A stretch of DNA of 43,217 nt, from NCBI GenBank assembly GCA_017656185.1, contig JACDOK010000019.1:1-43217 (forward strand), written 5' to 3'. The DNA comes from Peptococcaceae bacterium. GTDB taxonomy: Bacteria; Bacillota; Desulfotomaculia; Desulfotomaculales; JACDOK01. Every line of letters starts with the position of its first letter. Position 1 is the first letter of the stretch. A program made the translations under genes and the position numbers. The notes under the pieces are model-generated. The model did no database searches and was not told where the DNA came from. It was given only the letters and a program-made list of their open reading frames with translations. Of this stretch, positions 886 to 18,494 are shown piece by piece.

Positions 886-938
886 TAGGGGTAGTGAATA
901 CTTCAATTGTTTAACTATTTAGGGTGTTTCGAGGAGAG

Positions 939-1406
939 ATGACTTTGAGCGAGGAAAGGACAGACCAGTATCTAGAAAGAGTGGAAAGAGTAATGGCCGG
1001 GCTGATGCGCCATATGCACCTGACTTTAAGGAAATGCGCGCCACCGGATGTCTCTCACAGCCAGTTGATACTCTGCAAACGGGTGCGTCAGGCCGGGCGG
1101 ATGAGAGTTTCTGATCTGGCCGAAAATCTCGGTGTATCCTTGAGTGCGATAACGGCGGCCGCCGACCGTCTCTGTAAAAACGACATCCTGCGGCGTACCA
1201 GAGATGAGCGGGACCGCCGCCAGGTATGGCTGGAGTTGACGCCGCAGGGAGAAAGAATTGTTGGGGAAGCCCTCGACAAGTGGCGTGATGCATTGCGGCA
1301 GTATTTTTCTCAACTGCCGATGGGTGATATGGAACGACTGACGATAATTTGTGAGAAGCTGATGAACATTATTCAGCGGGATAAAGGCAAGAATGCACCC
1401 GATTAA
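939..1406 (+). CDS. MarR-family transcriptional regulator
   Basis: The protein (about 155 residues) is a winged-helix MarR regulator. Dimerisation helices are followed by the helix-turn-helix around RVSDLAENLGVSLSAITAAADRL split across about residues 55-80, then the wing with the family signature RDERDRRQVWLELTPQG (about 88-104). MarR proteins repress nearby genes and release DNA on binding small ligands or on oxidation. It sits 51 bases upstream of an RND adaptor and pump, so it most likely controls them. The start is uncertain: GAGGAG at 931-936 is only 2 bases from this ATG but 8 bases from an in-frame TTG at 945, which may be the true start. A GTG at 924 has no ribosome site. Confidence 0.88.
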   Translation: MTLSEERTDQYLERVERVMAGLMRHMHLTLRKCAPPDVSHSQLILCKRVRQAGRMRVSDLAENLGVSLSAITAAADRLCKNDILRRTRDERDRRQVWLELTPQGERIVGEALDKWRDALRQYFSQLPMGDMERLTIICEKLMNIIQRDKGKNAPD

Positions 1407-1457
1407 TCCATTGTATATTCTACTGTATATTCTACCGTGTGGATTGGGGGAGTAGTT

Positions 1458-2549: not shown

Positions 2550-2551
2550 TT

Positions 2552-5500
2552 ATGAAACTGGTTGATTTTTCGGTACGCCGCCCGGTAGCCGTTATCATGG
2601 CCGTTCTGGCCGTAATTGTAGTAGGCGCTGTTTCCTTCAGCCGCCTGGCCATTGACTTGTTTCCGGAGATGGAAATTCCGGTGGCGGCGGTAATCACGAC
2701 GTATGAAGGAGCTGCTCCGCAAGAGGTGGAGCGGCTGGTAACCAAGCCTTTGGAAGAAGCGCTGGCCACCATTGAAAACGTCAAGGAGATTACTTCCATA
2801 TCCCAGAGGGGCACCTCAATAATTACCGTCGGGTTTAACTGGGGTACCGACGTAGATTTTGCTACCTTGGACATGCGCGAGAAGATTGATTATGTCAAGC
2901 GTTTCCTGCCCGACGGTGTGGAAACGCCGATGGTTATGAAGTTCGATCCCTCCCAGATGCCCATCAGCATAATTTCCTTTACCGGCGAACAAAGCCAGGA
3001 AGAACTAAAACGCTTGGCTGAGGATACCGTTAAGCCCCGGCTGGAACGTATCGAAGGTGTGGCTTCGGCAGCCGTGTTCGGCGGCCGGGAACGCGAGATA
3101 CAGGTGATCGTTGACCCTGCGGCGCTAAGCGGGTACGGTATTTCTCTTAACCAGGTCGTGCAGGCGCTGCAGGCCCAAAACCTGGACTTTTCGGCGGGTA
3201 AGGTGCAGGAGGGAAGCAAGGATTACCTTGTGCGGGTTGTGGGTGAGTTTGAGGACCTGAAGGATATCGGCAATATTACGGTGGCGGTGCCCGGCGGTAC
3301 GGGCGCCAGGCTGCTGGATCTGGCCGAGATCCGTGACGGCTACAAGGACCAGGACATCAAGGGCCGTTTGGACGGAAATCCCGCCCTCGCCTTAATTATT
3401 CAAAAGCAGCCTACGGCAAATACGGTGGAGGTTTCAGAAAAGGTTGATGAGGTTCTTAGTGCCTTAAGTGCGGAGTTGCCAGGTAACATTAAGTTCAGCA
3501 AGGTCTTTGACCAGGCCGACTTTATTAAGGACTCCATCGCTGATCTGCAGAAAGATATCATCCAAGGGGGGCTGCTGGCGGCTTTCGTTATTTTTATTTT
3601 CCTACGCAGCCTGCGCAGTACCCTGGTAATTTTAACCGCCATCCCCATTGCCATTATCGGCGCGGCCAACCTGCTGTATTTTTCCGGGGAAACCATTAAT
3701 ATCATGACCCTCGGCGGCCTGGCGCTGGGGGTTGGTATGATTGTCGATGACGCCATTGTAGTACTGGAAAACATCTTTCGTCACCGCCAGGAGGGGTATG
3801 GGCTTATCGACGCCGCCACGTTAGGCGCCTCCGAGGTGGGAAGTGCGGTTACCGGGGCTACCCTGACCTCGATGGCCGTGTTTATTCCCATCATCTTCGT
3901 AGCGGGGTTGGCATCGGAGCTGTTCACACCACTGGCTTTGACGGTTTCTTTCGCTCTCGGCGCTTCTCTGCTGGTAGCCCTATCCCTGGTGCCGATGCTG
4001 TCTGCGCGCCTGCTGGCCAATGTCGGCCGCGAAACCCGTTCGGTGCGAGGTCTGCTGGGGCGTGTGCTGGACGCGACCGGAAGGGGCCTGCAGCGCCTCG
4101 ACGAGACGTACCGGAGCATACTGGACTACAGTTTGCGCCACCGTAAGAAAGTCCTGTTGGTGGCCGCGGCGGCCTTTTTCGGCAGCCTGGCTCTGATACC
4201 GCTGGTAGGGGCTGAGTTTATTCCCAAAATGGATGAGGGTATGGTCAGTGTCTCGCTGCAAATGCCCAAGGGTACAAGTATCGAGAAAACAGATGAGATC
4301 GTTACCTCTATCGAACAAATGGCCCTGGAAATCCCGGAGACGGACAGTGTTTTTACTTCCCTCGGGGCAGGCAGCCACGAGGAACGGGCCGGGTTTGGCG
4401 GCGGCAGTCCCGACCGGGCCATGGTTGACATCAAACTGAAACCCCTGTCGGAAAGGAAACGCAGTTCCGAAGAGATTGCCTCCGTCCTGCGGCGTGAACT
4501 GCAGGACATTCCCGGAGTTGAGGTTAATATAGAGGCCACCGGTATGATGACGATGGACACGGGCGGTCCTCCCCTGCAGGTGATTCTTAAGGGCGATAAT
4601 CTCGATACCCTGCGCGAATTAGCTGCCAAAGCGGCGGAGATAGTGGCGGAGGTCCCTGGTACCGTTGAGGTTGAATCGAGCCTTGAGGAAGGACGCCCCG
4701 AGTTGAACCTGGTGGTTGACCGCGACCGGGCGGCTGCTTACGGTTTGAGCGTGGCGCAGATCGGTTCGGCGGTACGGGCGGCGGTGCAGGGTCAGGTTGC
4801 AACCCGGTACCATGTGTCCGGTGATGAAATAGACGTGCGGGTGCGCCTGGCGGATGACGCGCGCCAAAACATCAACGATCTTGAGAATCTAATCCTTACT
4901 ACACCTTCCGGTGGGCAGGTGCTGCTGCGGGATGTTGCCAGTGTTGAGCCCGGTACCGGTCCTACTGCCATCCGGCGCCAGGACCAGTCCCGCATCGCGG
5001 TGATCTCGGGGAAACTGGAAGGGCGCGACCTTGGCAGTGTTATTGCCGATATCAAGGAACGCCTGCGCGACTTTCCCCTGCCGCCCGGGTACCAGTTTGA
5101 ATACAGCGGCGAGGCCAAGGAAATGGCCGAGGCCTTTGGCAACCTGGCGGTAGCCTTCGTGTTAGCCGTAATCCTGGTCTATATGATCCTGGCGATTCAG
5201 TTTGAATCTTTATTCTATCCCTTTGTGATTATGTTTTCCGTGCCGGTATCCTTTACCGGCATTGTACTCAGCCTGCTGGTTACGGGCCGGACCTTTAACC
5301 TGCCGGCTTTCATCGGCGTGATTGTGACGGTCGGCATTGTAGTAAAAAACGCCATCGTTCTGGTGGACTATATCAATATTCTGCGCAGCCGCAACCTCTC
5401 CCGGGACGAGGCTATCCTCAAGGCGGGACCGACCAGGCTGCGGCCGATTTTAATGACGGCGGGGACGACGATAGGCGCGATGTTCCCTATCGCTCTGGGC

Positions 5501-5680
5501 TTGGGCGAGGGTTCCGAAGTCGAAGCGCCCTTGGGTACGGTAGTGGTGGGGGGACTGCTCCTCTCTACGCTGGTGAGCCTGGTTCTGGTCCCTGTGGTTT
5601 ACAGTATTTTTGATGATTGGGGTCAAAGAATTATGCGGCGGTTCAGGCGTAGATCACAAGAAGCCGAACTTCGAACTTAG
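2552..5680 (+). CDS. RND-family efflux transporter permease (AcrB/MdtB/SwrC-like)
   Basis: The 1042-residue protein has full RND length, with two six-helix halves each followed by a large extracytoplasmic loop. The N-terminus (FSVRRPVAVIMAVLAVIVVGAV) is the first membrane segment. The proton-relay pair in helix 4 is intact (VGMIVDDAIVVLEN) and the helix-10 lysine is present (TVGIVVKNAIVLVDY), so the pump should be proton-driven. These features fit the hydrophobe/amphiphile exporters rather than SecDF. The start is 2 bases after the adaptor stop, so the two are translationally coupled. In Firmicutes the nearest described relative is SwrC/YerP, which exports surfactin-like lipopeptides; the substrate here is unknown. 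Its stop codon overlaps that of the convergent next gene by 4 bases. Confidence 0.93.
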   Translation: MKLVDFSVRRPVAVIMAVLAVIVVGAVSFSRLAIDLFPEMEIPVAAVITTYEGAAPQEVERLVTKPLEEALATIENVKEITSISQRGTSIITVGFNWGTDVDFATLDMREKIDYVKRFLPDGVETPMVMKFDPSQMPISIISFTGEQSQEELKRLAEDTVKPRLERIEGVASAAVFGGREREIQVIVDPAALSGYGISLNQVVQALQAQNLDFSAGKVQEGSKDYLVRVVGEFEDLKDIGNITVAVPGGTGARLLDLAEIRDGYKDQDIKGRLDGNPALALIIQKQPTANTVEVSEKVDEVLSALSAELPGNIKFSKVFDQADFIKDSIADLQKDIIQGGLLAAFVIFIFLRSLRSTLVILTAIPIAIIGAANLLYFSGETINIMTLGGLALGVGMIVDDAIVVLENIFRHRQEGYGLIDAATLGASEVGSAVTGATLTSMAVFIPIIFVAGLASELFTPLALTVSFALGASLLVALSLVPMLSARLLANVGRETRSVRGLLGRVLDATGRGLQRLDETYRSILDYSLRHRKKVLLVAAAAFFGSLALIPLVGAEFIPKMDEGMVSVSLQMPKGTSIEKTDEIVTSIEQMALEIPETDSVFTSLGAGSHEERAGFGGGSPDRAMVDIKLKPLSERKRSSEEIASVLRRELQDIPGVEVNIEATGMMTMDTGGPPLQVILKGDNLDTLRELAAKAAEIVAEVPGTVEVESSLEEGRPELNLVVDRDRAAAYGLSVAQIGSAVRAAVQGQVATRYHVSGDEIDVRVRLADDARQNINDLENLILTTPSGGQVLLRDVASVEPGTGPTAIRRQDQSRIAVISGKLEGRDLGSVIADIKERLRDFPLPPGYQFEYSGEAKEMAEAFGNLAVAFVLAVILVYMILAIQFESLFYPFVIMFSVPVSFTGIVLSLLVTGRTFNLPAFIGVIVTVGIVVKNAIVLVDYINILRSRNLSRDEAILKAGPTRLRPILMTAGTTIGAMFPIALGLGEGSEVEAPLGTVVVGGLLLSTLVSLVLVPVVYSIFDDWGQRIMRRFRRRSQEAELRT

Positions 5681-6438
5681 ATTTCGCGTTCGCTGTAATA
5701 GGTATCAATGTTGAACTCGAAGATTTCTCCTGTTTCAAGGTTTTCAATTTTATAGATCGAATAAATGCGGCGCGGGAGCAGGGTATCAGGGTAAACCAGC
5801 ATTTTAATCGTTCCTTCGGTAAATTTCACCGGAAAGTCATAACCGTATGATTCGAATATGGTAGGAAAGGTCCTGGACAGGTAATCCGGATCGACAGAGA
5901 AGAAAAACACGACGAATTTGCCGCGATTTTCTGATTTGTAATGTTTAGCATACCGGTTTAAAAGTTCTGCGTTAAACGGCAGTAATTCTAAAAGGTCAAA
6001 CGAATCTTTTTGCTGCGCGGTCCATGTTTTCGTTTGCCGGTCTTTGGTCAGATAGACCCCGTCTTGAAAATAGGCTTCTTCGACCGGGAGCAGGACCATA
6101 TTGCCTTTTGGTTCGGAAGATAAAGAAGTCTTTTCTTCCACTTCTTTTTTATCTTTTTCTTTAAGATGGGAAAACTGCAGCACATTCCGAAAGTTCAAGT
6201 ATTTGCTCCAAGCATTATAAGTGCCTTCGCGTTTCATTTGCCACTGATTGACAATTTCACCGTTTTGATATTGAGTGATGATAAATCCGGATTTAAAATT
6301 AATCACATGAACGTGATTGATTTTATTAATCACTGCATCATATAGTTGGTCCATCGGGTGCTCACGTTGTATCGCCATTCCGATATAAAGAGCGAGAATG
6401 ACGGCAGCAAATGAGGACAGCATCCAGATTTTTTTCAT
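5677..6438 (-). CDS. membrane-anchored extracytoplasmic protein, unknown function
   Basis: I do not recognise this 253-residue protein. An N-terminal hydrophobic segment (WMLSSFAAVILALYIGMAI) is a signal anchor without a lipobox. The rest is rich in predicted beta strands, and the last part (YPDTLLPRRIYSIYKIENL, then a TGEIFEFNIDTYY strand) resembles the closing strands of LolA/LppX-like lipid-binding folds; that is a weak structural guess. The start at 6438 (MKKIW) follows GAAAGGA about 12 bases upstream. Base composition is AT-rich like the polysaccharide cassette to its right and unlike the RND gene to its left. It is transcribed away from that cassette, and its stop codon overlaps the RND pump stop by 4 bases. 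Confidence 0.7.
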   Translation of the reverse strand: MKKIWMLSSFAAVILALYIGMAIQREHPMDQLYDAVINKINHVHVINFKSGFIITQYQNGEIVNQWQMKREGTYNAWSKYLNFRNVLQFSHLKEKDKKEVEEKTSLSSEPKGNMVLLPVEEAYFQDGVYLTKDRQTKTWTAQQKDSFDLLELLPFNAELLNRYAKHYKSENRGKFVVFFFSVDPDYLSRTFPTIFESYGYDFPVKFTEGTIKMLVYPDTLLPRRIYSIYKIENLETGEIFEFNIDTYYSEREI

Positions 6439-6489
6439 AAGATTAAGTTCCTTTCTGTAAATTTTTGCTGTAAAGTAAGAAAATTGTTC

Positions 6490-6519
6490 TTGTTTTTCGT
6501 ACAATTTTTATAATACAAT
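6490..6519 (+). promoter_or_regulatory. probable promoter of the polysaccharide cassette
   Basis: TTGTTT (6490-6495) and TACAAT (6514-6519) are separated by 18 bases. A TATAAT at 6509-6514 overlaps and could serve instead. It lies about 85 bases before the first glycosyltransferase, upstream of a leader hairpin. Confidence 0.45.
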
Positions 6520-6548
6520 CCGGTTTGGATTAAATCCAGGGGATTTTT

Positions 6549-6582
6549 TCTTTCCCTTTTATGGGAAAGATTTCTTGTTTTA
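6549..6582 (+). terminator. leader hairpin with U-rich tail before the polysaccharide operon
   Basis: TCTTTCCC (6549-6556) pairs perfectly with GGGAAAGA (6563-6570) across a six-base loop. TTTCTTGTTTTA follows. It lies between the likely promoter and the first glycosyltransferase, so it would act in the leader as an attenuator or stop for short transcripts. Long polysaccharide operons in Firmicutes are often controlled by antitermination at leader hairpins (LoaP-type systems); whether that applies here is inference. Confidence 0.45.
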
Positions 6583-6600
6583 GGTGAAAGGAGCAGGGAC

Positions 6601-7803
6601 GTGGAACGACTTATGCTTGCCATTTCCGCCGGGGAATGGGAAGGGATCAAGCATCGACCGCAGCATTTTATGCAGCGATGCGCAAGAAGCGGGTGGACCG
6701 TTATTTACTTGGAACCACCTGCAACCCTCATTGCGCCAATCAAAAATAGAAAGATGTTAAAACGCTGGAAAAACTGGTTTAAAGGACTGCGCAAAGTAGG
6801 AGAGAATTTATATGTTTTAGCACCGCCACCGGTTCTTCCTTTTGGTAATAAATACCGGATCGTCAATAAAATCAATCAGTGGTGGATGGCAAGGACGATT
6901 AAAAAAGCCATTAAGGCATGTAAGACAGAAACAGTCGACCTGTATACTTTTCTGCCGAATGCTGTCGATCTTCTGCCTTACTTTTCCTTCCATCGGGTGA
7001 TTTATGATTGTGTGGATGATCATGCCGCTTTTACAGGCTTGATCAATGCCGGTGTGGTATATCAGATGGAAAAGGAGCTGATGGCTGAAGCCGATCTCTC
7101 CTTCGCAACCGCAAAACGACTGCTTGAGGATCGTAAAGATTGGAGCACGCATCTCTATTTAATTCCCAACGGGGCAGAGTATGAACATTTTGCCGCAGAA
7201 GAGAAAGAGGAAAAGAAAAAAGAGGTACCTGCCGATTTAGCAGGCGTTCCTCATCCGATTGCCGGCTTTGTGGGTGGAATTAGCGATTGGGTCGATATTC
7301 CTCTCCTTACCAACGTGGCCAAAAAAATGAAAGAGGTCTCCTTTGTCCTCATTGGTCCTGTATCTACCAATGTGGATGCTCTAAAGCAATTGCCCAATGT
7401 TAAGTTGCTTGGGGCCAAACCCTATCGACAATTGCCGCGGTATATCCGTCAATTTGATACGTGTCTTATTCCGTTTCGCATCAATAAATTAACAGAAAGC
7501 GTCAATCCCATTAAGCTGTTTGAATATCTATCCGCTGGAAAACCTGTTGTCTCAACCCCGTTACCGGAAGTGTTCGCCTATCGTGAGGTGGTTGAGATTG
7601 CCGGCGATGAAGAGGAGATGATTCAAGCGATTAACAAAACGCTGGAACCAAAAGCAAGAGAAAAAGAAAACGTCCAAAAAAGACAACAAGTAGGCAGGGA
7701 AAATTCATGGGATGCAAGGTGGCAGTTGGCCCTGCATTATATAAAAACCGTAAAAGACAGCAAAGCGGGTCGATCCAGGGAGAATCAATATGTCACAAGT
7801 TAA
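6601..7803 (+). CDS. glycosyltransferase, TuaH-like (GT-B fold)
   Basis: The 400-residue protein resembles the TuaH/family-1-like glycosyltransferases of wall polysaccharide operons. The N-terminal half opens with SAGEWEGIKHRPQHF and contains VIYDCVDDHAAF (about residue 140), a hallmark of this group. The C-terminal half has the nucleotide-sugar-binding pattern ending TESVNPIKLFEYLSAGKPVV (about 299-318), where the E of LFEYL matches the second glutamate of the EX7E-type motif. No membrane segment is visible, so it should act at the cytoplasmic face on a lipid-linked sugar. GTG 6601 follows GAAAGGAG at a good distance. It overlaps the flippase gene by 14 bases. Donor and acceptor sugars cannot be read from sequence. 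Confidence 0.85.
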   Translation: MERLMLAISAGEWEGIKHRPQHFMQRCARSGWTVIYLEPPATLIAPIKNRKMLKRWKNWFKGLRKVGENLYVLAPPPVLPFGNKYRIVNKINQWWMARTIKKAIKACKTETVDLYTFLPNAVDLLPYFSFHRVIYDCVDDHAAFTGLINAGVVYQMEKELMAEADLSFATAKRLLEDRKDWSTHLYLIPNGAEYEHFAAEEKEEKKKEVPADLAGVPHPIAGFVGGISDWVDIPLLTNVAKKMKEVSFVLIGPVSTNVDALKQLPNVKLLGAKPYRQLPRYIRQFDTCLIPFRINKLTESVNPIKLFEYLSAGKPVVSTPLPEVFAYREVVEIAGDEEEMIQAINKTLEPKAREKENVQKRQQVGRENSWDARWQLALHYIKTVKDSKAGRSRENQYVTS

Positions 7804-9346
7804 AAAGCTGTTAGGTGCTGCATTTCTTTTGATGGTCGTCACTTTTTTAGGCAAAATTGCCGGTTTTTTGCGCGAAGTGTTTATTGCCGCGGAGTTTGGC
7901 ACAAGCCACAATGCCGATATTTTCGTGGCCGTCTCCACCATTCCCAATCTGCTGCTGACCATTACAGGCGGGGCTTTATCCGCTGCTTTAATTCCTATGG
8001 TTGTCCGCCTCTGCAATCAAAAGGAAACGATTCGTTTGAAACGGTTAATCAGCAGCATGTTTTCTATCACCGGTTTATCGATGATGGGCTTGGCGCTGCT
8101 TTTGTTTTTCTTTGGCGAAGAGTTTACCGGTCTTTATGTGGTTGGTTTTTCCGAAGAAGCAAAACAATTAACCTTGCAAATGATTCGGATTATCTTGCCG
8201 GCTCTTGTCGCGATCGGGTTAATCAGTTTGTTTTCATCCATTTTAAATGCTTACCAGCACTTTTTTATTCCGAGTTTAGGCCCCGTTTTTTACAGTCTCG
8301 GTGTGATTATTGCTACCGTTTTTTTCGCAAGCACGTACGGCGTGAAAAGCTTGATTATCGGTATGGCCATCGGTATTTTTGTACAACTTTTTCTTGTCAT
8401 AACCGTTACAATAAAGAAGGGTATTCCCTTTTTCCCCTCTCGAATATGGTGGAACGAAGATATTCGGCAAGTCGGCAAGCTGATGCTTCCCATTTTCATC
8501 GGGATAGGGGCGTTTCAGCTTAATATCCTGGTGGACCGGATGATGGCTTCCACTTTGCCGGAAGGAAGCCTGGCGGCACTGAACTACGCTTATCGCGTTA
8601 CACAGCTTCCGCTGAGTTTATTCGTCGGTTCGATGGTGCTGCCCTTATATCCAATGATCGCTGATAAAATCGCAAACCAGGATATGGACGGGGCAAAGGA
8701 GCTTTTGGCGAGAAGCTATCACCTGTTAGGGATTTTGCTGCTTCCGGTTATCGGGGTATTTGTTGCTCTTGCCGAACCAGTTATCGCGATCCTTTTTCAA
8801 CGAGGGCAATTTGATGCCGGTGCGGTGAAACTGACCAGCCTGGCCCTGATTCTTTATTCTTTTACCATTTTGCCGTTTGCCATGCGCGATGTGATTACCA
8901 GGGCGATGTATGCTTTACAAGACACATGGACTCCCGTGATCAACAGCGTTTTGTTAATCGCTTTGAATATTACCTTGATGGTGATATTTGTTCCCAAGTT
9001 AGGGATGATTGCCATAGCAGGCTCGACTTCCATTTCTTTCATCTTTGCTTATTTTCGTTTAAGGTATAAATTGATTAGAAAAATAGGAAAGACGGGTGGT
9101 AAAGAAGAACAGAAGTTATGGTTTAAAATTTGGCGCAATGCCTTTGTTTTTACGATCATTACTTGGGGAAGTTATCACGGGTTGATGTTTATTTGGTCCA
9201 AACCCATTGGAATGGAACTATGGCTTCGAACGTTAGTTAGTTTAGCAATTGGTGGATTTGTCTATCTTTATTTAACATTTCAAATTAATACCCCTGAAGT
9301 AGATTGGTTGAAAACGCGCTTGCAACAGTTGCTTGGCAGAAAATAA
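7790..9346 (+). CDS. MurJ/MviN-family lipid-linked polysaccharide flippase
   Basis: The 518-residue multi-spanning protein has the MviN/MurJ signature: an opening helix with GKIAGFLREVFIAAEFGTS, conserved NLLLTITGGALSAALIP in helix 2, and FQRGQFDA near residue 340. MOP-superfamily members of this type flip undecaprenyl-linked precursors across the membrane. A second full-length MurJ is encoded at 25709-27262 in the GC-rich part of the window. This copy sits inside a glycosyltransferase operon and so is more likely a Wzx-like flippase for the polysaccharide repeat than the essential lipid II flippase; that is inference. It overlaps the preceding gene by 14 bases, has GGGAG upstream and shares the AT-rich composition of the cassette. 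Confidence 0.87.
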   Translation: MSQVKKLLGAAFLLMVVTFLGKIAGFLREVFIAAEFGTSHNADIFVAVSTIPNLLLTITGGALSAALIPMVVRLCNQKETIRLKRLISSMFSITGLSMMGLALLLFFFGEEFTGLYVVGFSEEAKQLTLQMIRIILPALVAIGLISLFSSILNAYQHFFIPSLGPVFYSLGVIIATVFFASTYGVKSLIIGMAIGIFVQLFLVITVTIKKGIPFFPSRIWWNEDIRQVGKLMLPIFIGIGAFQLNILVDRMMASTLPEGSLAALNYAYRVTQLPLSLFVGSMVLPLYPMIADKIANQDMDGAKELLARSYHLLGILLLPVIGVFVALAEPVIAILFQRGQFDAGAVKLTSLALILYSFTILPFAMRDVITRAMYALQDTWTPVINSVLLIALNITLMVIFVPKLGMIAIAGSTSISFIFAYFRLRYKLIRKIGKTGGKEEQKLWFKIWRNAFVFTIITWGSYHGLMFIWSKPIGMELWLRTLVSLAIGGFVYLYLTFQINTPEVDWLKTRLQQLLGRK

Positions 9347-9371
9347 AAAGGACAGGAGAAGGTTATGCGTC

Positions 9372-10598
9372 ATGAAACATCTACACCGCTTGTTGTGGAT
9401 CCTTGCGTTTTTCCCGTGGCTGGATTTTATCATCCGCACCAATCTTCCTTCCGTGATCGGGAGCATCTGGGATGATATCTTTTTGCTCTTGATCCTTGTA
9501 ACCTTATGGCTGTATAAACGCCGTGAACCGAGGTACTTGTCGGTTCCAGGATCGGTTAAATGGCCGTTTTTGCTCTTTTTGTTCTTTTGTTTAAGCTCTG
9601 TCGTTGTTCATATCGTTCCGCTGCCGGTAAGCATCGATGCGATACGGGTCATCTTTCAGCCGGTGCTCTTTGCTCTCATCACCATGTATCTTCTAGATGA
9701 CGAAGAAACATCAGCCCGGTTTATGAACTTTTTACTTATCAGTACCGTTTTAATCGCCGTTTTCGGCATCATCCAATACGTGTTTAAAATAGATACCGGG
9801 CTTTGGAAACATGCGAAAGACACCGCTCAGTTTCGCATTGTGTCCATTTTCAGCAACCCCAACGCCTTAGCTGCCTATTTTAATATGATCTTAGCGTTTA
9901 CAGTAGCATCAGTTCTATTACTTAAGGATAAAAAGCAAAAGCTGTTATATCTCCTGGTATCACTCGTTATTTTTGTGGCGCTGCTTCTTACCTTTTCCCG
10001 CAGTGCCTGGATTGCCTTTGTCATAATGGTGCTTTACTTTGTCTTTGTCTGGAACAAAAAATGGTTAATCGCAATTCCCGTTTTCCTTGCCTCGACGCCG
10101 TTTATTCTGCCGCAGGGTATGATCAACCGTTTTGCCAAGCTGTTTGATCCAACGTATTATCAAATGAGCAGCGAGTATGGGAGGCTTGCCTTTTGGGCTG
10201 CGGCATTGGAAAAGATTAAAGAAAATCCACTCCTTGGCGTAGGACTGGGCATGTTTGGGGATTCGGTAGCCCTGCGGCATAATATTCCCTTTGCCACTTG
10301 GGTGGATAACCATTATTTAAAATTAGGGGCAGAAATCGGGGTCCCTGGTTTAATCTGCTTCATGCTCTTGTTGTTTATGCTGTTCCGCTTGGCGCATCGA
10401 TTGTACCTGACAGCGAAAACGGATAAACAGCGCATCTATGCCTTGGGCGTTGCCGGTGTGATTATTACCATGAGTATTCAAAACGTGACGGCAAGCATCT
10501 TAGAAGCACTCGCCGATGCCATTTACTTTTACGCCCTGACCGGTATATTATTTGCTTTTGTTTTTAAAGCCAAAAAGGAAGGTAAGTGCAGCCCATGA
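9372..10598 (+). CDS. O-antigen ligase/Wzy-like polysaccharide polymerase
   Basis: The 408-residue membrane protein has about ten hydrophobic segments and the Wzy_C/O-antigen ligase landmarks: SNPNALAAYFN in one helix, TFSRSAWIAF, then a large extracytoplasmic loop and the conserved NPLLGVGLGMFG and DNHYLKLGAEIGVPGL. Such proteins polymerise or transfer lipid-linked glycans on the outer face of the membrane; TuaE of the Bacillus teichuronic operon is a comparable case. ATG 9372 is preferred because AGGAGAAGG ends about 10 bases upstream; an upstream TTG at 9333 lies inside the previous gene. Polymerase versus ligase cannot be separated from sequence alone, but the position between a flippase and glycosyltransferases favours polymerase. 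Confidence 0.82.
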   Translation: MKHLHRLLWILAFFPWLDFIIRTNLPSVIGSIWDDIFLLLILVTLWLYKRREPRYLSVPGSVKWPFLLFLFFCLSSVVVHIVPLPVSIDAIRVIFQPVLFALITMYLLDDEETSARFMNFLLISTVLIAVFGIIQYVFKIDTGLWKHAKDTAQFRIVSIFSNPNALAAYFNMILAFTVASVLLLKDKKQKLLYLLVSLVIFVALLLTFSRSAWIAFVIMVLYFVFVWNKKWLIAIPVFLASTPFILPQGMINRFAKLFDPTYYQMSSEYGRLAFWAAALEKIKENPLLGVGLGMFGDSVALRHNIPFATWVDNHYLKLGAEIGVPGLICFMLLLFMLFRLAHRLYLTAKTDKQRIYALGVAGVIITMSIQNVTASILEALADAIYFYALTGILFAFVFKAKKEGKCSP

Positions 10599-11740
10599 AG
10601 GTTATGCAGGTGATTGGCGGCGGGGAAAAAGGTGGGTCTCGCAGCCATATCATTACGCTTGGCAAGGAACTACGCAAAAAAGGCGTTCATGTAGAGCTCG
10701 TTTGTTTTTTGGATGATGTCGTCGCCAAATCGGCACGAGATGAAAATATCCCCGTTACCGTTTTTCCCATGCAACATATTTTTGACCTGCGTGTGATTAA
10801 GCAACTGCATGCATATATTAAGAAGAAAAAACCTCACCTTGTCCATACCCATGGGGTAAGGGCCAATTTTATCGGCCGGCTGGCGGCAAGACGGGCGGAT
10901 ACCCCTGTCGTTACCACTGTCCACAGCTCCATCTACCACGATTATGCCCATCTGTTAAAGAAGTTTTTTTACCACCGGATTGAAAAATTAACAAGACCTT
11001 ATACCAGCAAATTTATTGCCGTGGCCGGTTCATTGAAAAAAGAGCTTGAAGCAGACGGAATCAAAAGCGAAAAGATCGCAGTGGTATATAACGGTTTATC
11101 GCCGGATTTTCCCTTGGATACAAAACCGGCGCCGTTTTTACGAAAAGAATTGGGGATTGCCGAGGAGATTCCCGTCTTAATGACCATTGGCCGGATGGAA
11201 AGCGTAAAAAACCAGGCGATGCTGTTACAAGTGTTTGCGCTGTTAAAACAAAACGGAATCCCTTTTCACGGGGTCTTGGTAGGGGATGGGCCGTTATTAT
11301 CCGAACTGAAAGAAATGGCTGCTTCTCTTGAGATTGAAGAGGAGGTAAGCTTCTTAGGATTTCGCAAAGATATTTTTCCATTGTTATCAGAAGCCGATTT
11401 ATTTTTGCTAACATCCAAGATGGAAGGGTTACCCGTTACGCTGTTGGAAGCGATGGCTGCTTCTACCCCTGTGGTGGTAACAGGTGTAGGTGGGATGCCG
11501 GAAATTGTTCAACTTGCCCAAAACGGCTATGTGGTTCCCGTGGACGATATGGAACAATTTGCAGCAAGGATTCAAGCGCTTCTCGTCCAACCAGACTTAA
11601 AACAAAAACTGGCGGAAAACGGCCGCCAAGCCCTGCGGAAACATTTTACGGCAGAACAATTTATTAAGCATACGCTGCAAGTATATCAAGAGGTCCTCGC
11701 AGAAAAGAGCAAAGCGGGGAAAAAAGAGGCGGGATCATGA
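10595..11740 (+). CDS. GT4-family glycosyltransferase
   Basis: The 381-residue GT-B glycosyltransferase shows the N-terminal MKVMQVIGGGEKGGSRSHI loop, the LVHTHGVRANFIGRLAA acceptor-side motif, and in the C-terminal half the donor site with VLVGDGPLL and the EX7E pair in EGLPVTLLEAMA. This retaining GT4 family includes TuaC and many capsular or wall enzymes. The start ATG overlaps the previous stop as ATGA; an in-frame GTG 9 bases earlier is possible because GGAAGG lies close by. It is followed by csaB with a second ATGA overlap, so the three genes are tightly coupled. The sugar specificity is unknown. Confidence 0.87.
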   Translation: MKVMQVIGGGEKGGSRSHIITLGKELRKKGVHVELVCFLDDVVAKSARDENIPVTVFPMQHIFDLRVIKQLHAYIKKKKPHLVHTHGVRANFIGRLAARRADTPVVTTVHSSIYHDYAHLLKKFFYHRIEKLTRPYTSKFIAVAGSLKKELEADGIKSEKIAVVYNGLSPDFPLDTKPAPFLRKELGIAEEIPVLMTIGRMESVKNQAMLLQVFALLKQNGIPFHGVLVGDGPLLSELKEMAASLEIEEEVSFLGFRKDIFPLLSEADLFLLTSKMEGLPVTLLEAMAASTPVVVTGVGGMPEIVQLAQNGYVVPVDDMEQFAARIQALLVQPDLKQKLAENGRQALRKHFTAEQFIKHTLQVYQEVLAEKSKAGKKEAGS

Positions 11741-12855
11741 GAAAAGGGGTCGTGATCGTGGGTTATTACGGGGCCAACAATACCGGGGATGAAGCGATAC
11801 TGACCGGGATGATCCACGCCTTAAAGGCGCAAGGAATTACGGATATTACGGTTCTCAGCCGGGATCCGGAACAAACGAGAAAAATCCACGGCGTAAACAG
11901 CATCTATATTGGCCGCCGGTTTGACGGGTTAATAGAAATTTTTCATAAGATGCGCAAAAGCAAGCTGTTTATCTTGGGTGGCGGCGGCCTGCTGCAGGAT
12001 TATTCAAGGCGTGTTGTTCCATATTGGTTAAGCCGGGTGTTATTGGCCCTGTTGGCTCGTACTCCGGTGATGTATTATGCCCAAGGAATCGGACCGCTTC
12101 GGACCAAAGAAGCAAAGCGCCTTGTTCGCCTTATTTCAAACCGTGTCAAATGGATTACCGTTCGCGATGAAGAATCATTAAGTCTTTTACAAGAGCTCGG
12201 CGTTTTTAAACCGCGGATGGAAGTAACTGCCGATCCTGCTTTGGGGATAAAGGTTACTTCCAACGGGCTTGATTTGTTGCGCCAGGCAGGGATAATACTT
12301 GATCCCCGTAAAATTAAAGTAGGAATCTCTTTGCGTTCTTGGAAGGGGGAAGAAAGCTATCTTCCCGTATTGATTCAGGCGCTTCAGCGGTTAAAAGAGG
12401 AATATGACGTGCAATATATCTTTTTCCCGTTCCAATTTGGAGAAGATGAAGGGATTAGTCAAAAAGTGATGGAAGCAGTAGAGGCGGAAGATGCCTGTCT
12501 TCTAAAAGGGACTTATACCCCGGAACAGGTGGCGGCGATGTTAAAAGAGATGGACGGCGTCATTGCCATGCGCCTGCATGCGGTCATTTTAAGTGCTGTT
12601 TCCTTTGTTCCCTCTTTTGGCTTAATCTATGATCCCAAAGTGCTTCGATTTATGGAACGGGCCGGAATTGCAGCATATAGCGTTTCGCTGGAAAGGATGC
12701 AGGAGAAAGAAGAAGCATTTAACAAGCAACTCGTCGATTGGTTAGCTGCAAGGCAGCAGATCAGCGAACAGATGGAACCACGCGTTGAAGCGATGATGCG
12801 ACTCTCACTTCGCAGCGCAGAGATTGCAAAACAATTGATGAACGATTTTCAATAG
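11737..12855 (+). CDS. csaB: polysaccharide pyruvyl transferase (CsaB-like)
   Basis: The 372-residue protein matches the CsaB pyruvyltransferase family: VIVGYYGANNTGDEAIL near the N-terminus, the glycine-rich LFILGGGGLLQDYSR (about residues 77-91), YYAQGIGPL, the DPAL segment (about 165), and the C-terminal MRLHAVILSA. These enzymes transfer pyruvate from phosphoenolpyruvate to a sugar, often ManNAc, of secondary cell-wall polymers. The ketal is the ligand for SLH domains of S-layer proteins. Its presence is the best clue that the cassette makes a peptidoglycan-linked secondary polymer. It overlaps the upstream GT4 gene as ATGA. No CsaA-type or S-layer gene is seen in the window, so the link to an S-layer is inferred. 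Confidence 0.88.
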   Translation: MRKGVVIVGYYGANNTGDEAILTGMIHALKAQGITDITVLSRDPEQTRKIHGVNSIYIGRRFDGLIEIFHKMRKSKLFILGGGGLLQDYSRRVVPYWLSRVLLALLARTPVMYYAQGIGPLRTKEAKRLVRLISNRVKWITVRDEESLSLLQELGVFKPRMEVTADPALGIKVTSNGLDLLRQAGIILDPRKIKVGISLRSWKGEESYLPVLIQALQRLKEEYDVQYIFFPFQFGEDEGISQKVMEAVEAEDACLLKGTYTPEQVAAMLKEMDGVIAMRLHAVILSAVSFVPSFGLIYDPKVLRFMERAGIAAYSVSLERMQEKEEAFNKQLVDWLAARQQISEQMEPRVEAMMRLSLRSAEIAKQLMNDFQ

Positions 12856-12882: not shown

Positions 12883-14193
12883 ATGGTGATGGAAAGAAAG
12901 AAAATTACCGTAATTGGCTTGGGATTTGTCGGTTTACCACTTTCCTTAAGTTTTGCCATGCGGGGTTATCCGGTGATTGGGCTTGATGTAAACCAATCTT
13001 TAATTGAAGATTTAAATCAAGGGATTACCTATCATTTAGAGCAGTATCAAGGGAAAACCATTCAAGAAATTCTAAAAGAAGCACTGGCAAATGGAACCTT
13101 TAAAGCAACAAGCAACTACCGAGAAGCGTTTGCTGAATCGGATACTTATATCGTTACCGTCAGCCTTCCTGTCAAAGAAGGAATGCCGGTTTATGACTAT
13201 TTTGAAGCTGCGATGATGGATTTAGGGAAAGGACTAAAACAAGGCGATCTTGTTCTTATCCGCAGTACCGTTGTACCGGGGACGACGGAAGAAATTGCCA
13301 AACCGATTCTGGAAAAAGAAAGTGGACTTAAGGCAGAAAAGGATTTCTATCTCGCCTATGCATCAGAACGTATTGCCGAAGGGAAAGCATTTGAAGAGTT
13401 TGAAAACATGCCGACCATCGTAGCTGGGATTAGCCCGGAAAGCGCAGAAAAGGCGAAAGAAGTTTTGCGCTTAATTTCAAAAGCAGAGATTCATGTCGCT
13501 TCCGATATGAAAGTGGTAGAGACTGCCAAAGTGTTTGAAAATGTTTCCCGTGACGTCAATATTGCCATGGCCAATCAATTTGCCCAGTTTTGTCAGGCTT
13601 TAGGGATTGATACGATGGAAACCTTCCGTATGGCAAACACCCATAAACGCGTTAATCTCTTAACCCCCGGCCCTGGTGTGGGCGGCTGTTGTTTGCCAAG
13701 TGCCTATTATTATCTTCGTCCTAAACAAGTGGAGCTAAATATCGATCTTTCTCTACTGCAAATGGCACGGATGATCAATGATCAAGTGCCGGCGCGGATT
13801 GTGGACATGATCGATTATATGCTTAAAAAACAAGGAAAATTACTCCAAGGGGCGGAAGCCGCCGTACTTGGATTAGCGATGAAAGATTATTCCAATGATG
13901 ATCGCAACAGCCCTGCCCATTACGTATGCAGGCGTTTAATAGAAAAAGGTGTGATAGTAAAGGCATATGATCCTGCTGTTCATTCCCGTGCCGCTTATGC
14001 CGTCGATTCGCTGGAGCAAGCGATTGAACAAGCAGATGCCCTGGTCGTGCTTGCAAAACAAAAAGCCTTTGACGGTTTAAATCTTACTTCCATTAAAGAG
14101 AGGATGAAAGATCATCCTATTTTAGTCGATACCAAACATCTATTCAGCAAAGAACAAGCCCAAGAATTAGGCTTTGATTATTTTGCCATCTAA
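12883..14193 (+). CDS. UDP-sugar 6-dehydrogenase (UDP-ManNAc/UDP-hexose dehydrogenase family)
   Basis: The 436-residue protein has the N-terminal NAD-binding motif VIGLGFVGLPLSLSFA (about residues 10-25), the STVVPGTTEE central motif and a UDP-binding C-terminal domain. The VGLPLS variant fits the WecC/TviB group acting on N-acetylhexosamine nucleotides better than UDP-glucose dehydrogenases. The catalytic loop is odd: it reads GPGVGGCCLPSAYYYL (263-278). C270 aligns with the catalytic cysteine, but the usual His before it is Cys and the conserved Asp four residues later is Ala274. That could weaken thioester hydrolysis or signal altered specificity. Starts at 12883 and 12889 are both possible. 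It precedes a TagA/WecG transferase, which suggests UDP-ManNAcA production and use, an inference. Confidence 0.85.
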   Translation: MVMERKKITVIGLGFVGLPLSLSFAMRGYPVIGLDVNQSLIEDLNQGITYHLEQYQGKTIQEILKEALANGTFKATSNYREAFAESDTYIVTVSLPVKEGMPVYDYFEAAMMDLGKGLKQGDLVLIRSTVVPGTTEEIAKPILEKESGLKAEKDFYLAYASERIAEGKAFEEFENMPTIVAGISPESAEKAKEVLRLISKAEIHVASDMKVVETAKVFENVSRDVNIAMANQFAQFCQALGIDTMETFRMANTHKRVNLLTPGPGVGGCCLPSAYYYLRPKQVELNIDLSLLQMARMINDQVPARIVDMIDYMLKKQGKLLQGAEAAVLGLAMKDYSNDDRNSPAHYVCRRLIEKGVIVKAYDPAVHSRAAYAVDSLEQAIEQADALVVLAKQKAFDGLNLTSIKERMKDHPILVDTKHLFSKEQAQELGFDYFAI

Positions 14194-14206
14194 GTAAGGG
14201 ATGGAT

Positions 14207-14938
14207 ATGCAGCTAAAAACCGTACGCGTCTTGGGAAAACCAGTTCATCTGGTCAATATGCAGGAAGCGGTTTCCTATCTTCGCGGGCAAATGGCAGAAG
14301 GGATCAAACAATTTGTCATTGCCCAAAATCCGGAAAAAATAATGAAATCCCTGCAAGATGAAGAATTGTCTGCTATTATGGAAAAGAAAGCCACTTTACT
14401 GATCGCGGACGGCGTAGGCCTTGTCATTGCGGGGAGGATTTTGGGCCTGCCTCCCATTTCCCGCGTTACCGGGGTCGGGTTGTTTGAAGAAATGGTAAAA
14501 GCGGCCAATGAAGAAGGGAAAAAGGTCTTTCTCTACGGCGCCGCAGCGCAAGTGGTGAAAAAAACGGGAGAGATCCTTCAGCAGCGCTATCCTAATTTGC
14601 GAATTGTAGGGACGCAAGATGGTTACGAGAAAGATATGGAGAAGATCATAACCAAAATCCAACAGGCAAAGCCTGATTATTTATTTGTGGCGTTGGGTTC
14701 GCCAAGGCAGGAAAAATGGATTGCCAAATATTTTGACCGGCTTCCGGTACAACTGGCGATGGGGGTAGGGGGAACGTTTGACGTTTTGACGGGTAATGTT
14801 AAACGCGCCCCTGTCTTAATGCAAAAGATCGGCTTAGAGTGGCTGTACCGGTTGTTAAAACAGCCTTCGCGAGCAAAAAGAATGATCAACCTTCCTAAGT
14901 TTTTGTGGCGAGTGATCAAAGCAAAGTTTAATTTCTAA
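14207..14938 (+). CDS. TagA/WecG/CpsF-family glycosyltransferase (GT26)
   Basis: The 243-residue protein has the GT26 features: NPEKIMKSLQD, the ADGVGLVIAGRILG motif containing the catalytic-base Asp, ALGSPRQEKWIAK, GVGGTFDVLTGNVKRAP and GLEWLYRLLKQP. TagA adds ManNAc and WecG adds ManNAcA to undecaprenyl-PP-GlcNAc, the second step of wall or antigen chain assembly. The following membrane-binding C-terminal tail (KRMINLPKFLWRVIKAKF) is also typical. The upstream dehydrogenase makes a ManNAcA donor plausible, and a WecA/TagO homologue at 19386 could supply the acceptor. AAGGG at 14196-14200 touches an ATG at 14201, so ATG 14207 is the better start. No MnaA/WecB epimerase is present in the window. 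Confidence 0.87.
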   Translation: MQLKTVRVLGKPVHLVNMQEAVSYLRGQMAEGIKQFVIAQNPEKIMKSLQDEELSAIMEKKATLLIADGVGLVIAGRILGLPPISRVTGVGLFEEMVKAANEEGKKVFLYGAAAQVVKKTGEILQQRYPNLRIVGTQDGYEKDMEKIITKIQQAKPDYLFVALGSPRQEKWIAKYFDRLPVQLAMGVGGTFDVLTGNVKRAPVLMQKIGLEWLYRLLKQPSRAKRMINLPKFLWRVIKAKFNF

Positions 14939-14972
14939 CTTTTATCTTCTTCTTAATGAGAGGATTTTTTTG

Positions 14973-17078
14973 ATGAGGAAAATTGGATTTGTATTACTTC
15001 TAACAACATTTCTAACTTTTATATTCTATCATCCTTTACCGGCAAAAGCAGAAGGAATACTTCAAGAAGGTTTTTTAGATATAGATGGGGATCAGACTAA
15101 ACAAATATACATCATACAAAAGAATAATAAGGTATATATACCACTCTGTACAATTGCAAATTGTCTTGGAATTAACACAGAGTGGGATGGGAAAACAAAT
15201 ACGATAACCCTTACCTATCCGAACCAAAGACAAGTAAAGATTAATCTCAAATCAAAAAAATTTTATAAGGAAGCCCTGTGGAATTCCCTTGGTGTCATAG
15301 TCTATGAAGGGACTACCTATGTTTTGAAAGATGATTTAGAGTCTCTTATCGAACGAAAAACGGGCTGGGATGATCAAACCAATACCTTCTATGTTTACAT
15401 GTATGTACATCCACAACAAGGATACTCTGTCTTAAAAGTTCTACCCTATGAAGGGTTTCAAATTAAAAGAAACACGATTTTTTTCAACGTAGAAACATTG
15501 CCTCAAGCATCCTGGAAACTAAACGGGGAGTTACGAGACTTTCGACTAATCAACCATACGAAACAATCTAACATTGAAGAGGTTCAGTATGCTGCTTTTT
15601 ATAAAACAGATGAGGGCTTAAACAATCAATTACTCATTACTCAAAGAAAATTACCAAACGGCGACCAAATAATCTTTATTAAAGGATACGCTCCAAAAGA
15701 AGATCAGGTTTTAGAATACAAAGCAACACCATCTGATCGAATCTATGGCAGTGCCGCTTATCATTATATCGACCACGGTCCCTTACATACGTTATTAGCG
15801 GAAGAACCATACAGGCACCATCAACGTCTAACAATTAAAGCAGGAGAATCGTTAGATCAATGGTATCTTTTTAGCCGAGAAAGCCTGGCTGTCCAAGATA
15901 TTTATATTAAAAGAGCTTGGGAGGTTAGCGAAAATTATCATAAAACCAATACTTGGGTGACGGCAGAAGGTACCCATCGCCGTACCCCTGTGGCGTATCA
16001 AGACAAGAAGAAATACTATAACAAAAACATTAATAACATTAACCTGCAGGCATCCGTACCAATGCTTTTATTGGAAACGCTGCAGGTGAAACATCACCGC
16101 TTGTTAGAAGATGTGGTTCATAATGCAAAATTTACTTTAGTGAAGTGGTTGGGGAGAAATAGATTTTGGCATGCAGGACTTGATGCTGCTTATTTAAACC
16201 GAGCCTATGGACTAGGGCGAAATTATATCGATACGAGGATGTCTGTTGATGCTTCGTTATTTTTAATTCGATATGGCTTAATGTTTGATGATCAGGAAGC
16301 AATCGAAAAAGGCAAACAGTTTAAACAATATTTTTTGATGCTTAAAGAAAAAGGGTTAACCTATCAGTTAAATGGAGGATATTTATATCCTGATTATTTT
16401 TCCGAACGGCAGAAAAAGAAAACATTAGTTTCCTTAAATCATGCATTATATGAAATGAATTATTTATATACTTTATATCACTGGCTGGGAGATGCCGAAG
16501 CCAAACAGTTAGCAGATGAAATGCTGCGATTTATCCATCACAGTGCGAATCGGTGGATTACAGCAAATGGAGATTTCTATTATGCCTTAAGTCCGGAAGG
16601 TAAATATTACGGGAAAGATTATGTAAATATTACTTATATGGATCTTTTTGTAACCCAAAGTATTTTACATTACGCTGGACTGGAAGATCCTGTGATCCAA
16701 CAACTATTTAAGCAAAAAGGAAAGTATCTCGATCAAATAAAATCTCCGTTATATGAATCCCATTTACATATGGATAAGATTTTTCAAACTTTTGATCAAA
16801 AAATAAGTACCAAAGGGGGTCTATTCTTTTCGTATCCTTTGCAAGTTAAAATGGCGGCTGAATATGATTCTGCCTATTTTGCTTATGGTGCCTATCATTG
16901 GATAAAAGGTGCCGAGCGTATCACCTTTAAACAGCAAACTATACCACTTGATCCAAAGAAAAAATATATGGTGATCTTAACTAAAGAAAAATTATATCTT
17001 TTAGATAAACCTATCCAAGAAATTAACGTTAAAGCAGGTGAATTAATCTTTAAAGCAAAGGACAGCAGCATAGAATAG
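14973..17078 (+). CDS. large secreted protein: copper-amine-oxidase-like N-terminal domain plus uncharacterised toroid-like region
   Basis: The 701-residue protein begins with a clear signal peptide (hydrophobic stretch, then PLPAKA before E). Residues about 33-125 look like the Cu_amine_oxidN1 stalk domain, a non-enzymatic wall-associated module (VYIPLCTIANCLGINTEWD, then NTITLTY). A beta-rich middle (about 140-310) follows. About 320-640 is helix-rich with repeated aromatic and His/Asp residues (NRFWHAGLDAAYLNRAYG; NHALYEMNYLYTLYHWLGD; EYDSAYFAYGAYHWIKG), reminiscent of alpha/alpha-toroid glycan-active enzymes such as lyases or C5-epimerases. I cannot name the family. It is the most AT-rich gene here and closes the polysaccharide cassette. 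ATG 14973 follows GAGAGGA by 8 bases. Action on the exported polymer is inference. Confidence 0.75.
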   Translation: MRKIGFVLLLTTFLTFIFYHPLPAKAEGILQEGFLDIDGDQTKQIYIIQKNNKVYIPLCTIANCLGINTEWDGKTNTITLTYPNQRQVKINLKSKKFYKEALWNSLGVIVYEGTTYVLKDDLESLIERKTGWDDQTNTFYVYMYVHPQQGYSVLKVLPYEGFQIKRNTIFFNVETLPQASWKLNGELRDFRLINHTKQSNIEEVQYAAFYKTDEGLNNQLLITQRKLPNGDQIIFIKGYAPKEDQVLEYKATPSDRIYGSAAYHYIDHGPLHTLLAEEPYRHHQRLTIKAGESLDQWYLFSRESLAVQDIYIKRAWEVSENYHKTNTWVTAEGTHRRTPVAYQDKKKYYNKNINNINLQASVPMLLLETLQVKHHRLLEDVVHNAKFTLVKWLGRNRFWHAGLDAAYLNRAYGLGRNYIDTRMSVDASLFLIRYGLMFDDQEAIEKGKQFKQYFLMLKEKGLTYQLNGGYLYPDYFSERQKKKTLVSLNHALYEMNYLYTLYHWLGDAEAKQLADEMLRFIHHSANRWITANGDFYYALSPEGKYYGKDYVNITYMDLFVTQSILHYAGLEDPVIQQLFKQKGKYLDQIKSPLYESHLHMDKIFQTFDQKISTKGGLFFSYPLQVKMAAEYDSAYFAYGAYHWIKGAERITFKQQTIPLDPKKKYMVILTKEKLYLLDKPIQEINVKAGELIFKAKDSSIE

Positions 17079-17144: not shown

Positions 17145-18494
17145 ATGCGTAAACGGTATAGATTGAAAAACGTTTGGCGCTTGGCAGCGGTTTTGGCCGT
17201 TTTCTTTGCCTTGGTCTGGTGCGGCTACCAGGGTTCTTTGTACTTGATGGAATATTTGTTTGGACCGCCGCCGGCTGCTGTGGGGGAAAATTCCGCTGAC
17301 GAAGATCCCAAGGTAGTTTTACCTTCCGAGCGTTTGAATCTTCTGGTTCTAGGTATGGACCGGCGGCAGGGGGAAGAGTTTAACACGCGCTGCGACACTA
17401 TCATGTTCGTCAGTGCCGACCCTAAGAAAAAGCAGGTGGCGGTTTTGTCGATTCCCCGCGACACCCGGGTCAATATCCCCGGGTACGGTTATGACAAGAT
17501 TAATGCCGCCACTGTTTACGGCGGTCCAGAGTTGTTACAACAAACCGTGGAGGAATTCCTGGACCTGCCGGTTGATTATTATGTGGTGACGGACTTTCAG
17601 GGTTTTGAGAATATTGTCGATATCCTCGGCGGCGTGACGATAAATGTGGAACAGCGGATGTATTATGCTGAAGGGCCCAATAATAATGTCGTAGTGGACC
17701 TTTACCCGGGGGAACAGCGGTTGAACGGGAAACAGGCCCTGGGATACGTACGCTATCGTGGTTACGAGTGGGCCGACATTACCCGTACCGAAAAACAGCA
17801 AAAGTTTTTGCGAGCCCTGGCCGGCGAGGTCATGCAGGCGAGCACTATTACGAAAATCCCCAGTTTAATCAAGGAAATAAATAAGTGCGTGGAAACAAAC
17901 CTGAGCTTAAAAGAAATGCTGCGCTGGGGAGCCCTGGCCAGGAACATGGAGCAGTTCGATATGGTAACAGCTACCCTGCCGGGTTATCCCATAACGATAG
18001 ACGGTTTGAGCTATTGGTACCTGGAGCCATCCCGGGCCCATGAAGTGGCGGTGAACCTGATGAACGGGGAAAAGGTGGCTAGTCACATCGAGCCCCCTCC
18101 GCCTAACAGTATTGCCTGGCGTTATATCCGTGAGGCCGAAGAGAAAGAGAAAGAAGCGTCCGGGCAAGACGCTGCTGGTACTGGTACGACCACCGGTGGA
18201 CAGGTCGCTTTGGATAATGCCGCTAAGACTGACAACGGTAACGATAGCCCGCAGCCGCAGGCGGGTTCCGGCAATGACGGTGATGCCGGTCAACCGGAAG
18301 GTGGCGGCGTTATCATAATTGTTGACGAGCCTGCGGGTCCGGAGCAGGATACCGCTGGGGGAACGCAGAATACAGGTGAGGGCACGGATGGTGCGCCGGG
18401 TCAAAGCGGGCCGCAAGGCGACACGGGAACGGCTGCGGAAGGTGAACCTTCTGACACGCTTTTGCCCCAACCCGATACCGTGCAAACGGGTTAA
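17145..18494 (+). CDS. LytR-CpsA-Psr family wall-polymer ligase
   Basis: The 449-residue protein has a short cytoplasmic N-terminus, one membrane segment (about 10-30) and an extracellular LCP domain (about 60-300). Domain landmarks are LLVLGMDRR, RCDTIMFVSAD, the conserved SIPRDTRVNIPGYGYDKINAA and the arginine-rich YVRYRGYEWADITRTEKQQKFL. LCP proteins transfer lipid-linked polymers to peptidoglycan. The final 130 residues are a low-complexity Gly/Thr/Glu/Gln-rich tail, probably disordered. Composition is GC-rich, unlike the cassette to its left, so it belongs to the host backbone, yet it is perfectly placed to attach the cassette product. AGAGGCG precedes the ATG. Confidence 0.9.
   Translation: MRKRYRLKNVWRLAAVLAVFFALVWCGYQGSLYLMEYLFGPPPAAVGENSADEDPKVVLPSERLNLLVLGMDRRQGEEFNTRCDTIMFVSADPKKKQVAVLSIPRDTRVNIPGYGYDKINAATVYGGPELLQQTVEEFLDLPVDYYVVTDFQGFENIVDILGGVTINVEQRMYYAEGPNNNVVVDLYPGEQRLNGKQALGYVRYRGYEWADITRTEKQQKFLRALAGEVMQASTITKIPSLIKEINKCVETNLSLKEMLRWGALARNMEQFDMVTATLPGYPITIDGLSYWYLEPSRAHEVAVNLMNGEKVASHIEPPPPNSIAWRYIREAEEKEKEASGQDAAGTGTTTGGQVALDNAAKTDNGNDSPQPQAGSGNDGDAGQPEGGGVIIIVDEPAGPEQDTAGGTQNTGEGTDGAPGQSGPQGDTGTAAEGEPSDTLLPQPDTVQTG

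Follow-up and report, generated by a model that had tools for sequence, protein, structure and literature searches.

A secreted protein encoded next to a secondary cell-wall polymer operon belongs to a family remotely similar to D-glucuronyl C5-epimerases

The gene described here lies on the forward strand of a 43,217-nucleotide stretch of DNA from a Peptococcaceae bacterium (the whole of this stretch is referred to below as the window), and it is flanked on both sides by polysaccharide genes. The principal features are as follows, with residue numbers counted from the ATG at 14973.

6601..12855, + strand: upstream operon with genes for a glycosyltransferase, a MurJ-type flippase, a Wzy/O-antigen-ligase-type protein, a GT4 protein and CsaB (domain matches)
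11737..12855, + strand: CsaB pyruvyltransferase (TIGR03609, 242.8 bits against a cut-off of 213.1)
12883..14193, + strand: nucleotide-sugar 6-dehydrogenase, with UDP-ManNAc dehydrogenase models as its nearest matches (NCBIfam/Pfam comparison)
14201..14938, + strand: TagA/WecG-family glycosyltransferase (domain matches)
14958..14964, + strand: ribosome-binding-like GAGAGGA, read directly, 8 nt before the ATG at 14973
14973..17078, + strand: gene for a 701-amino-acid secreted protein of a divergent GlcE-like (C5-epimerase-type) family (open reading frame and family comparison)
14973..15050, + strand: signal peptide, residues 1–26, MRKIGFVLLLTTFLTFIFYHPLPAKA (by eye)
15114..15395, + strand: Cu_amine_oxidN1 (PF07833) stalk domain, residues 48–141 (Pfam match, E-value 1.2e-10)
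15402..15884, + strand: beta-rich segment ahead of the helical core, residues 144–304 (secondary structure in a low-confidence model)
15948..16754, + strand: helical (alpha/alpha toroid-like) putative catalytic core, residues 326–594 (profile, model and fold search)
16785..17075, + strand: C-terminal beta-rich tail, residues 605–701, present only in the long subgroup of the family (the window protein, L001 and L034)
17145..18494, + strand: LytR-CpsA-Psr (LCP) glycopolymer transferase, 67 bases downstream of the gene (domain matches)

The upstream genes are on the same strand as the 701-residue gene and nearly touch one another. With csaB, tagA and genes for a flippase, a polymerase and an LCP protein in line, and with several proteins of the same genome carrying SLH domains, the locus qualifies as a CsaB-type pyruvylated secondary cell-wall polymer operon; relative to the gene surroundings described in PMC6801904, used here for comparison, the window would add a uronic acid. 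The dehydrogenase at 12883..14193, two genes upstream of the 701-residue gene, is the only PF00984 protein of the genome, and it scores 307 bits with UDP-ManNAc dehydrogenase equivalogs and 159 with TuaD (a UDP-glucose enzyme), all of these values being below the respective cut-offs. A reading of the sequence without database searches (hereafter the sequence-only reading) had placed the gene at the end of the polysaccharide operon, which is nearly right, although the LCP gene follows it and FabA-like, WecA-type transferase, nucleotidyltransferase, sugar epimerase/dehydratase and phosphomannomutase-type genes lie further on. Several of the terminator-like stems found in a scan of the window fall inside genes.

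The list of open reading frames gives a frame from 14970 to 17078 on the + strand with a TTG start, but the GAGAGGA at 14958–14964 fits the ATG at 14973, which is therefore the likely start of a 701-residue protein ending at the stop at 17078, as had been proposed. The frame is not a chance one, since the protein is conserved in L001, with 51% identity over residues 1–677. The secreted, two-part build described in the sequence-only reading—a copper-amine-oxidase-like stalk joined to a helical, toroid-like region—is borne out by the signal peptide, by the Cu_amine_oxidN1 match (41.8 bits against a cut-off of 24.2) and by a helix-rich stretch of about residues 310–600 in the structure model. The Pfam search finds the N-terminal N1 module alone, the catalytic Cu_amine_oxid domain being absent, and membership in the copper amine oxidases was rejected. 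Beyond the stalk no sequence match was found in Pfam, NCBIfam, PHROGs or the PDB. Matches of relatives to NlpE (E-value 0.093), AMPKBI, DUF4179 and AlkB were dropped as below the cut-off and mutually inconsistent.

Relatives are scattered thinly, with 15 carrier genomes (the window's included) among about 500 sampled, nearly all of them in one phylum. The closest, L001 ('Clostridiales bacterium DTU086'), is from the same phylum but outside the order of the window; besides it, a dozen or so of 398 genomes of the phylum carry a relative, as does one genome (G019) of that order. No relatives were found in the viral contigs searched, and the plasmids searched yielded one, on the 396-kb Bacillus badius plasmid pPM400 (L080, 9248–11539), in which SLH domains are fused to the family domain and polysaccharide genes are absent among the neighbours. 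A profile built from the window and L001 proteins retrieves the other intact members with E-values of 1e-11 to 1e-66, and in full-length members the N-terminus reads, by eye, as a signal peptide or a membrane anchor. The order dehydrogenase–tagA–family gene is common to the window and L001, and NodB-type deacetylase genes adjoin the family gene in L037 and L038; in two further loci (L039, 7593–9944, and L040, 9035–11386) a PgaB/IcaB-like polysaccharide N-deacetylase is fused to the C5-epimerase-like domain, an arrangement reminiscent of heparan sulfate synthesis, in which deacetylation comes before epimerisation. In most other relatives the neighbours are unrelated to polysaccharides.

Several members show individual peculiarities. 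L035 (9602–10547; G117 C3:67391–68555) is a family pseudogene with several stop codons and frame changes, whereas the copy in G163 (L034), of the same family, is intact. One genome (G405) encodes two paralogues, L044 (9294–10853) and L045 (9508–11190), the second of which has His in place of Tyr at the position of GlcE Y578, has also lost the Tyr corresponding to Y537, and may be inactive. Directly after the relative in L001 there is a phosphodiester glycosidase (NAGPA) gene (5105–6742), for whose product the wall polymer may likewise be a substrate.

The family core (15 members) was compared by hhalign with a profile of ten GlcE-type C5-epimerase proteins, human and zebrafish included, and the two align over 174 columns with a probability of 89% and a score of 47.3; an earlier, smaller comparison had given 81%. 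Three hundred column-shuffled GlcE profiles score 13.5 on average (sd 2.4, maximum 21.8), which places the real score 14 sd above the mean, and the reversed GlcE profile scores 15.6. Control profiles of N-acylglucosamine 2-epimerases and GH88 reach 28.8 (probability 7%) and 35.6, the latter over 31 columns only; neither membership—AGE (PF07221) or GH88 (PF07470)—gives a Pfam match, and both were rejected. It is the short relatives that contribute most of the signal: the three-member subgroup of the window (window, L001 and L034) scores 24.8 alone and the window protein by itself 22.3, barely above the shuffle maximum. The window protein is tied to the GlcE-like signal through its family, because the window-plus-L001 profile finds the other members strongly. 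Two family members match the Pfam C5-epim_C model (PF06662) below threshold (E-values 0.031 and 0.14; 14.8 and 12.5 bits against 23.3), and the window protein has no match to it at E-values up to 1. At the level of the family, these sequence comparisons make homology well supported, the core being in all likelihood a remote homologue of GlcE.

The alignment also bears on the active site. The GlcE catalytic residues are E499, Y500, N510, Y560 and Y578 (PMC13308652), of which Y578 and E499 are described as exchanging the C5 proton (PMC12834895). The conserved positions of the window protein are:

16230..16250, + strand: family signature DTRxxxD (D420, R422, D426), with little or no variation among members (alignment)
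16389..16397, + strand: P-D474-Y475, invariant in 15 members; D474 aligns with GlcE E499 and Y475 with Y500
16431..16442, + strand: S-L-N489-H490, invariant in 15 members; N489 aligns with GlcE N510
16581..16583, + strand: Y537, a conserved Tyr offset by one column from where GlcE Y560 falls (alignment)
16617..16622, + strand: D549-Y550, with Tyr in 14 of 15 members; Y550 aligns with GlcE Y578

Four of the five GlcE residues (E499, Y500, N510 and Y578) thus fall on conserved family columns, and the chance of at least four doing so is 6e-4; this probability is quoted for four rather than five because Y560 lands one column before Y537. E499 is replaced by Asp throughout the family, whereas Y500, N510 and Y578 are kept; H579 and H582, conserved in GlcE, are not retained. 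The YHxxH and SAxAQGQ motifs of GlcE are replaced by DYxxxTxxDL and DTRxxxD, which together with GGxLxxDY, SLNH and GDLxYA mark the family. Since those two motifs are missing and Asp stands for Glu499, the family lies outside PF06662 as defined; it forms a sister group, probably with the same chemistry. The conserved aromatic, His and Asp residues noted from the sequence of the window protein alone are confirmed.

A template-free model of core residues 326–594 is weak (mean pLDDT 52, pTM 0.54). In a Foldseek search of 350,542 PDB chains with this model, human and zebrafish GlcE chains stand at ranks 4, 6, 7, 8 and 10, with 17–18% identity, rmsd mostly of 3.5–3.6 Å and E-values of 0.02–0.04. 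N-acylglucosamine 2-epimerase folds are interspersed with them and rank equally high, GH76 and GH88 toroids are also among the matches, and there are no lyases among the top 50 structures. A model of 558 residues (2 sequences, pLDDT 42), which matched mixed sugar-enzyme toroids and mutarotase-like sheets, was left out of the evidence. The sequence-only reading had proposed structure prediction and fold search of the helical region, naming a confident non-glycan match or the lack of a toroid fold as counting against it; the weak model matches alpha/alpha toroids of sugar enzymes, and no non-glycan match was found. That reading had also been unable to place the protein in a named family, which holds for curated models, but profile and fold comparison point to GlcE.

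The likeness to GlcE (human 6HZZ/6I01, zebrafish 4PW2/4PXQ) goes beyond the aligned residues. In both, the C-terminal core is helical and its helices follow one another in the same order; a beta-rich region precedes the core in the low-confidence model, where GlcE has a beta-hairpin and beta-sandwich, a fold that the region in the family may share; and the family, like GlcE, would act on a polymer outside the cytoplasm. The differences are also plain: identity is about 17–18% and the match is below the Pfam cut-off, the window protein adds the Cu_amine_oxidN1 stalk and a C-terminal beta tail, and GlcE works on heparan sulfate whereas the window protein belongs to a wall-polymer operon. Bacterial GlcE-type proteins, annotated 'D-glucuronyl C5-epimerase family protein' and drawn from plasmids and genomes, belong to the same superfamily by profile, and several adjoin glycosyltransferases; unlike the present family they have intact EEYP, LNG and YHxxH motifs, and the examples compared here came from PF06662 matches or from C5-epimerase annotations, neither of which applies to the family. 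Enzymes of the AGE superfamily (N-acylglucosamine 2-epimerase and cellobiose 2-epimerase) are cytoplasmic and act on free sugars; their alpha/alpha toroids are the top structural matches besides GlcE, but their profile matches the family much more weakly (28.8 against 47.3). The Bermanella marisrubri enzyme is described as the only bacterial D-glucuronyl C5-epimerase identified, and Agl32, an archaeal GlcA C5-epimerase that acts on a surface glycan and has a helical domain, is reported to have none of the GlcE catalytic residues (PMC13308652). The present family is likewise prokaryotic with a helical domain, but differs from Agl32, as described, in the GlcE residues.

A uronic-acid epimerase requires a uronic acid, and carriers of the family are thus expected to encode a nucleotide-sugar dehydrogenase. 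All 15 carriers do, compared with 37 of 65 non-carriers (p = 7e-4) and 29 of 46 size-matched non-carriers (p = 3e-3), both tests ignoring phylogeny.

We consider it about an even chance (roughly 0.5) that the window protein is an exported member of a previously undescribed family sharing GlcE ancestry and acts as a uronic-acid C5-epimerase on the finished polymer of the operon. The sequence-only reading had offered a lyase, an epimerase or a hydrolase; the profile, fold and residue matches to GlcE make the epimerase the best choice and leave the other two with lower weight. A glycoside hydrolase or other toroid carbohydrate enzyme with chemistry unrelated to GlcE, for example one that works alongside NodB-type deacetylases on wall polymers rich in GlcNAc, is unlikely: the N-acylglucosamine 2-epimerase, GH76 and GH88 toroids among the fold matches speak for it, as do the deacetylases encoded next to the family gene in L037 and L038 and present as a fusion in L039, an arrangement like that of PgaB, where the partner domain of the deacetylase is a hydrolase, and the invariant D420, D426 and D474 could be hydrolytic, but the 2-epimerase and GH88 control profiles score well below GlcE and the conserved residues cluster on GlcE catalytic positions.

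Slightly more unlikely is a polysaccharide lyase that would make the same C5 proton abstraction, eliminate at C4 and so cut the exported polymer, trimming its length or releasing chains. Lyases and C5-epimerases have the first chemical step in common, the beta, alpha toroid and beta tail order also occurs in toroid lyases and fits the window protein, and the Glu-to-Asp change with the family-specific DTRxxxD shows that the active site differs from that of GlcE. Against this, it is GlcE that the profile and fold comparisons point to, the top 50 structures include no lyase, both residues proposed to act on the two faces in GlcE are in place—needed more by an epimerase—and a polymer-destroying enzyme is less expected to be co-encoded with LCP attachment. 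We give the least weight to a wall protein without catalytic activity, which would bind carbohydrate or serve as a scaffold and whose fold would be that of an inactivated enzyme. We judge this improbable; the stalk is itself a non-catalytic module and the L045 paralogue suggests that inactive members exist, but the aligned Tyr is kept in the window copy and in 14 of 15 members, and the Asp-Tyr and Asn in all, which is the pattern of an enzyme under selection.

For the C5-epimerase, we infer catalysis, epimerisation rather than lysis, the substrate and action after export, and a course of events can be proposed. The flippase would export polymer material, to be polymerised outside the cytoplasmic membrane, where the 701-residue enzyme, probably kept near the wall by its stalk, would edit the polymer at C5 of its uronic acid. 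The chain would thread across the cleft of the helical domain, with Y550 (GlcE Y578) and D474 (GlcE E499) taking and giving the C5 proton on opposite faces and Y475, N489 and Y537 close to this pair. The dehydrogenase encoded two genes upstream would supply the uronic acid that is edited—probably ManNAcA (N-acetylmannosaminuronic acid), giving L-gulosaminuronic acid, with glucuronic acid, giving L-iduronic acid, as a possible substrate—and the LCP protein would then fix the edited polymer to peptidoglycan. In its most specific form, in which a C5-epimerase of heparan sulfate enzyme stock converts ManNAcA to L-GulNAcA in an exported, pyruvylated, S-layer-anchoring secondary cell-wall polymer, the proposal is tentative and on balance doubtful.

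If the epimerase assignment is right, C5 epimerisation would extend to cell-wall polymers through a divergent family of secreted proteins that occurs here and there among Bacillota-type genomes, L-uronic acids would be predicted in these polymers, and a new type of enzyme would be available for remodelling uronic-acid polysaccharides; we know of nobody who has looked for L-uronic acids in such polymers. In the most specific form, a bacterial wall polymer would be matured in a heparan-like way, for which we know of no precedent among Gram-positive wall polymers. These unannotated proteins would gain a curated home as a new Pfam family placed next to C5-epim_C.

Two minor observations concern the start of the window. 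A 275-residue open reading frame on the − strand (5677–6504), which has no Pfam match and may be spurious, separates the polysaccharide operon from the genes upstream of it, and these (924–5680) encode a MarR regulator, an HlyD-type adaptor and a full RND (AcrB-type) pump.
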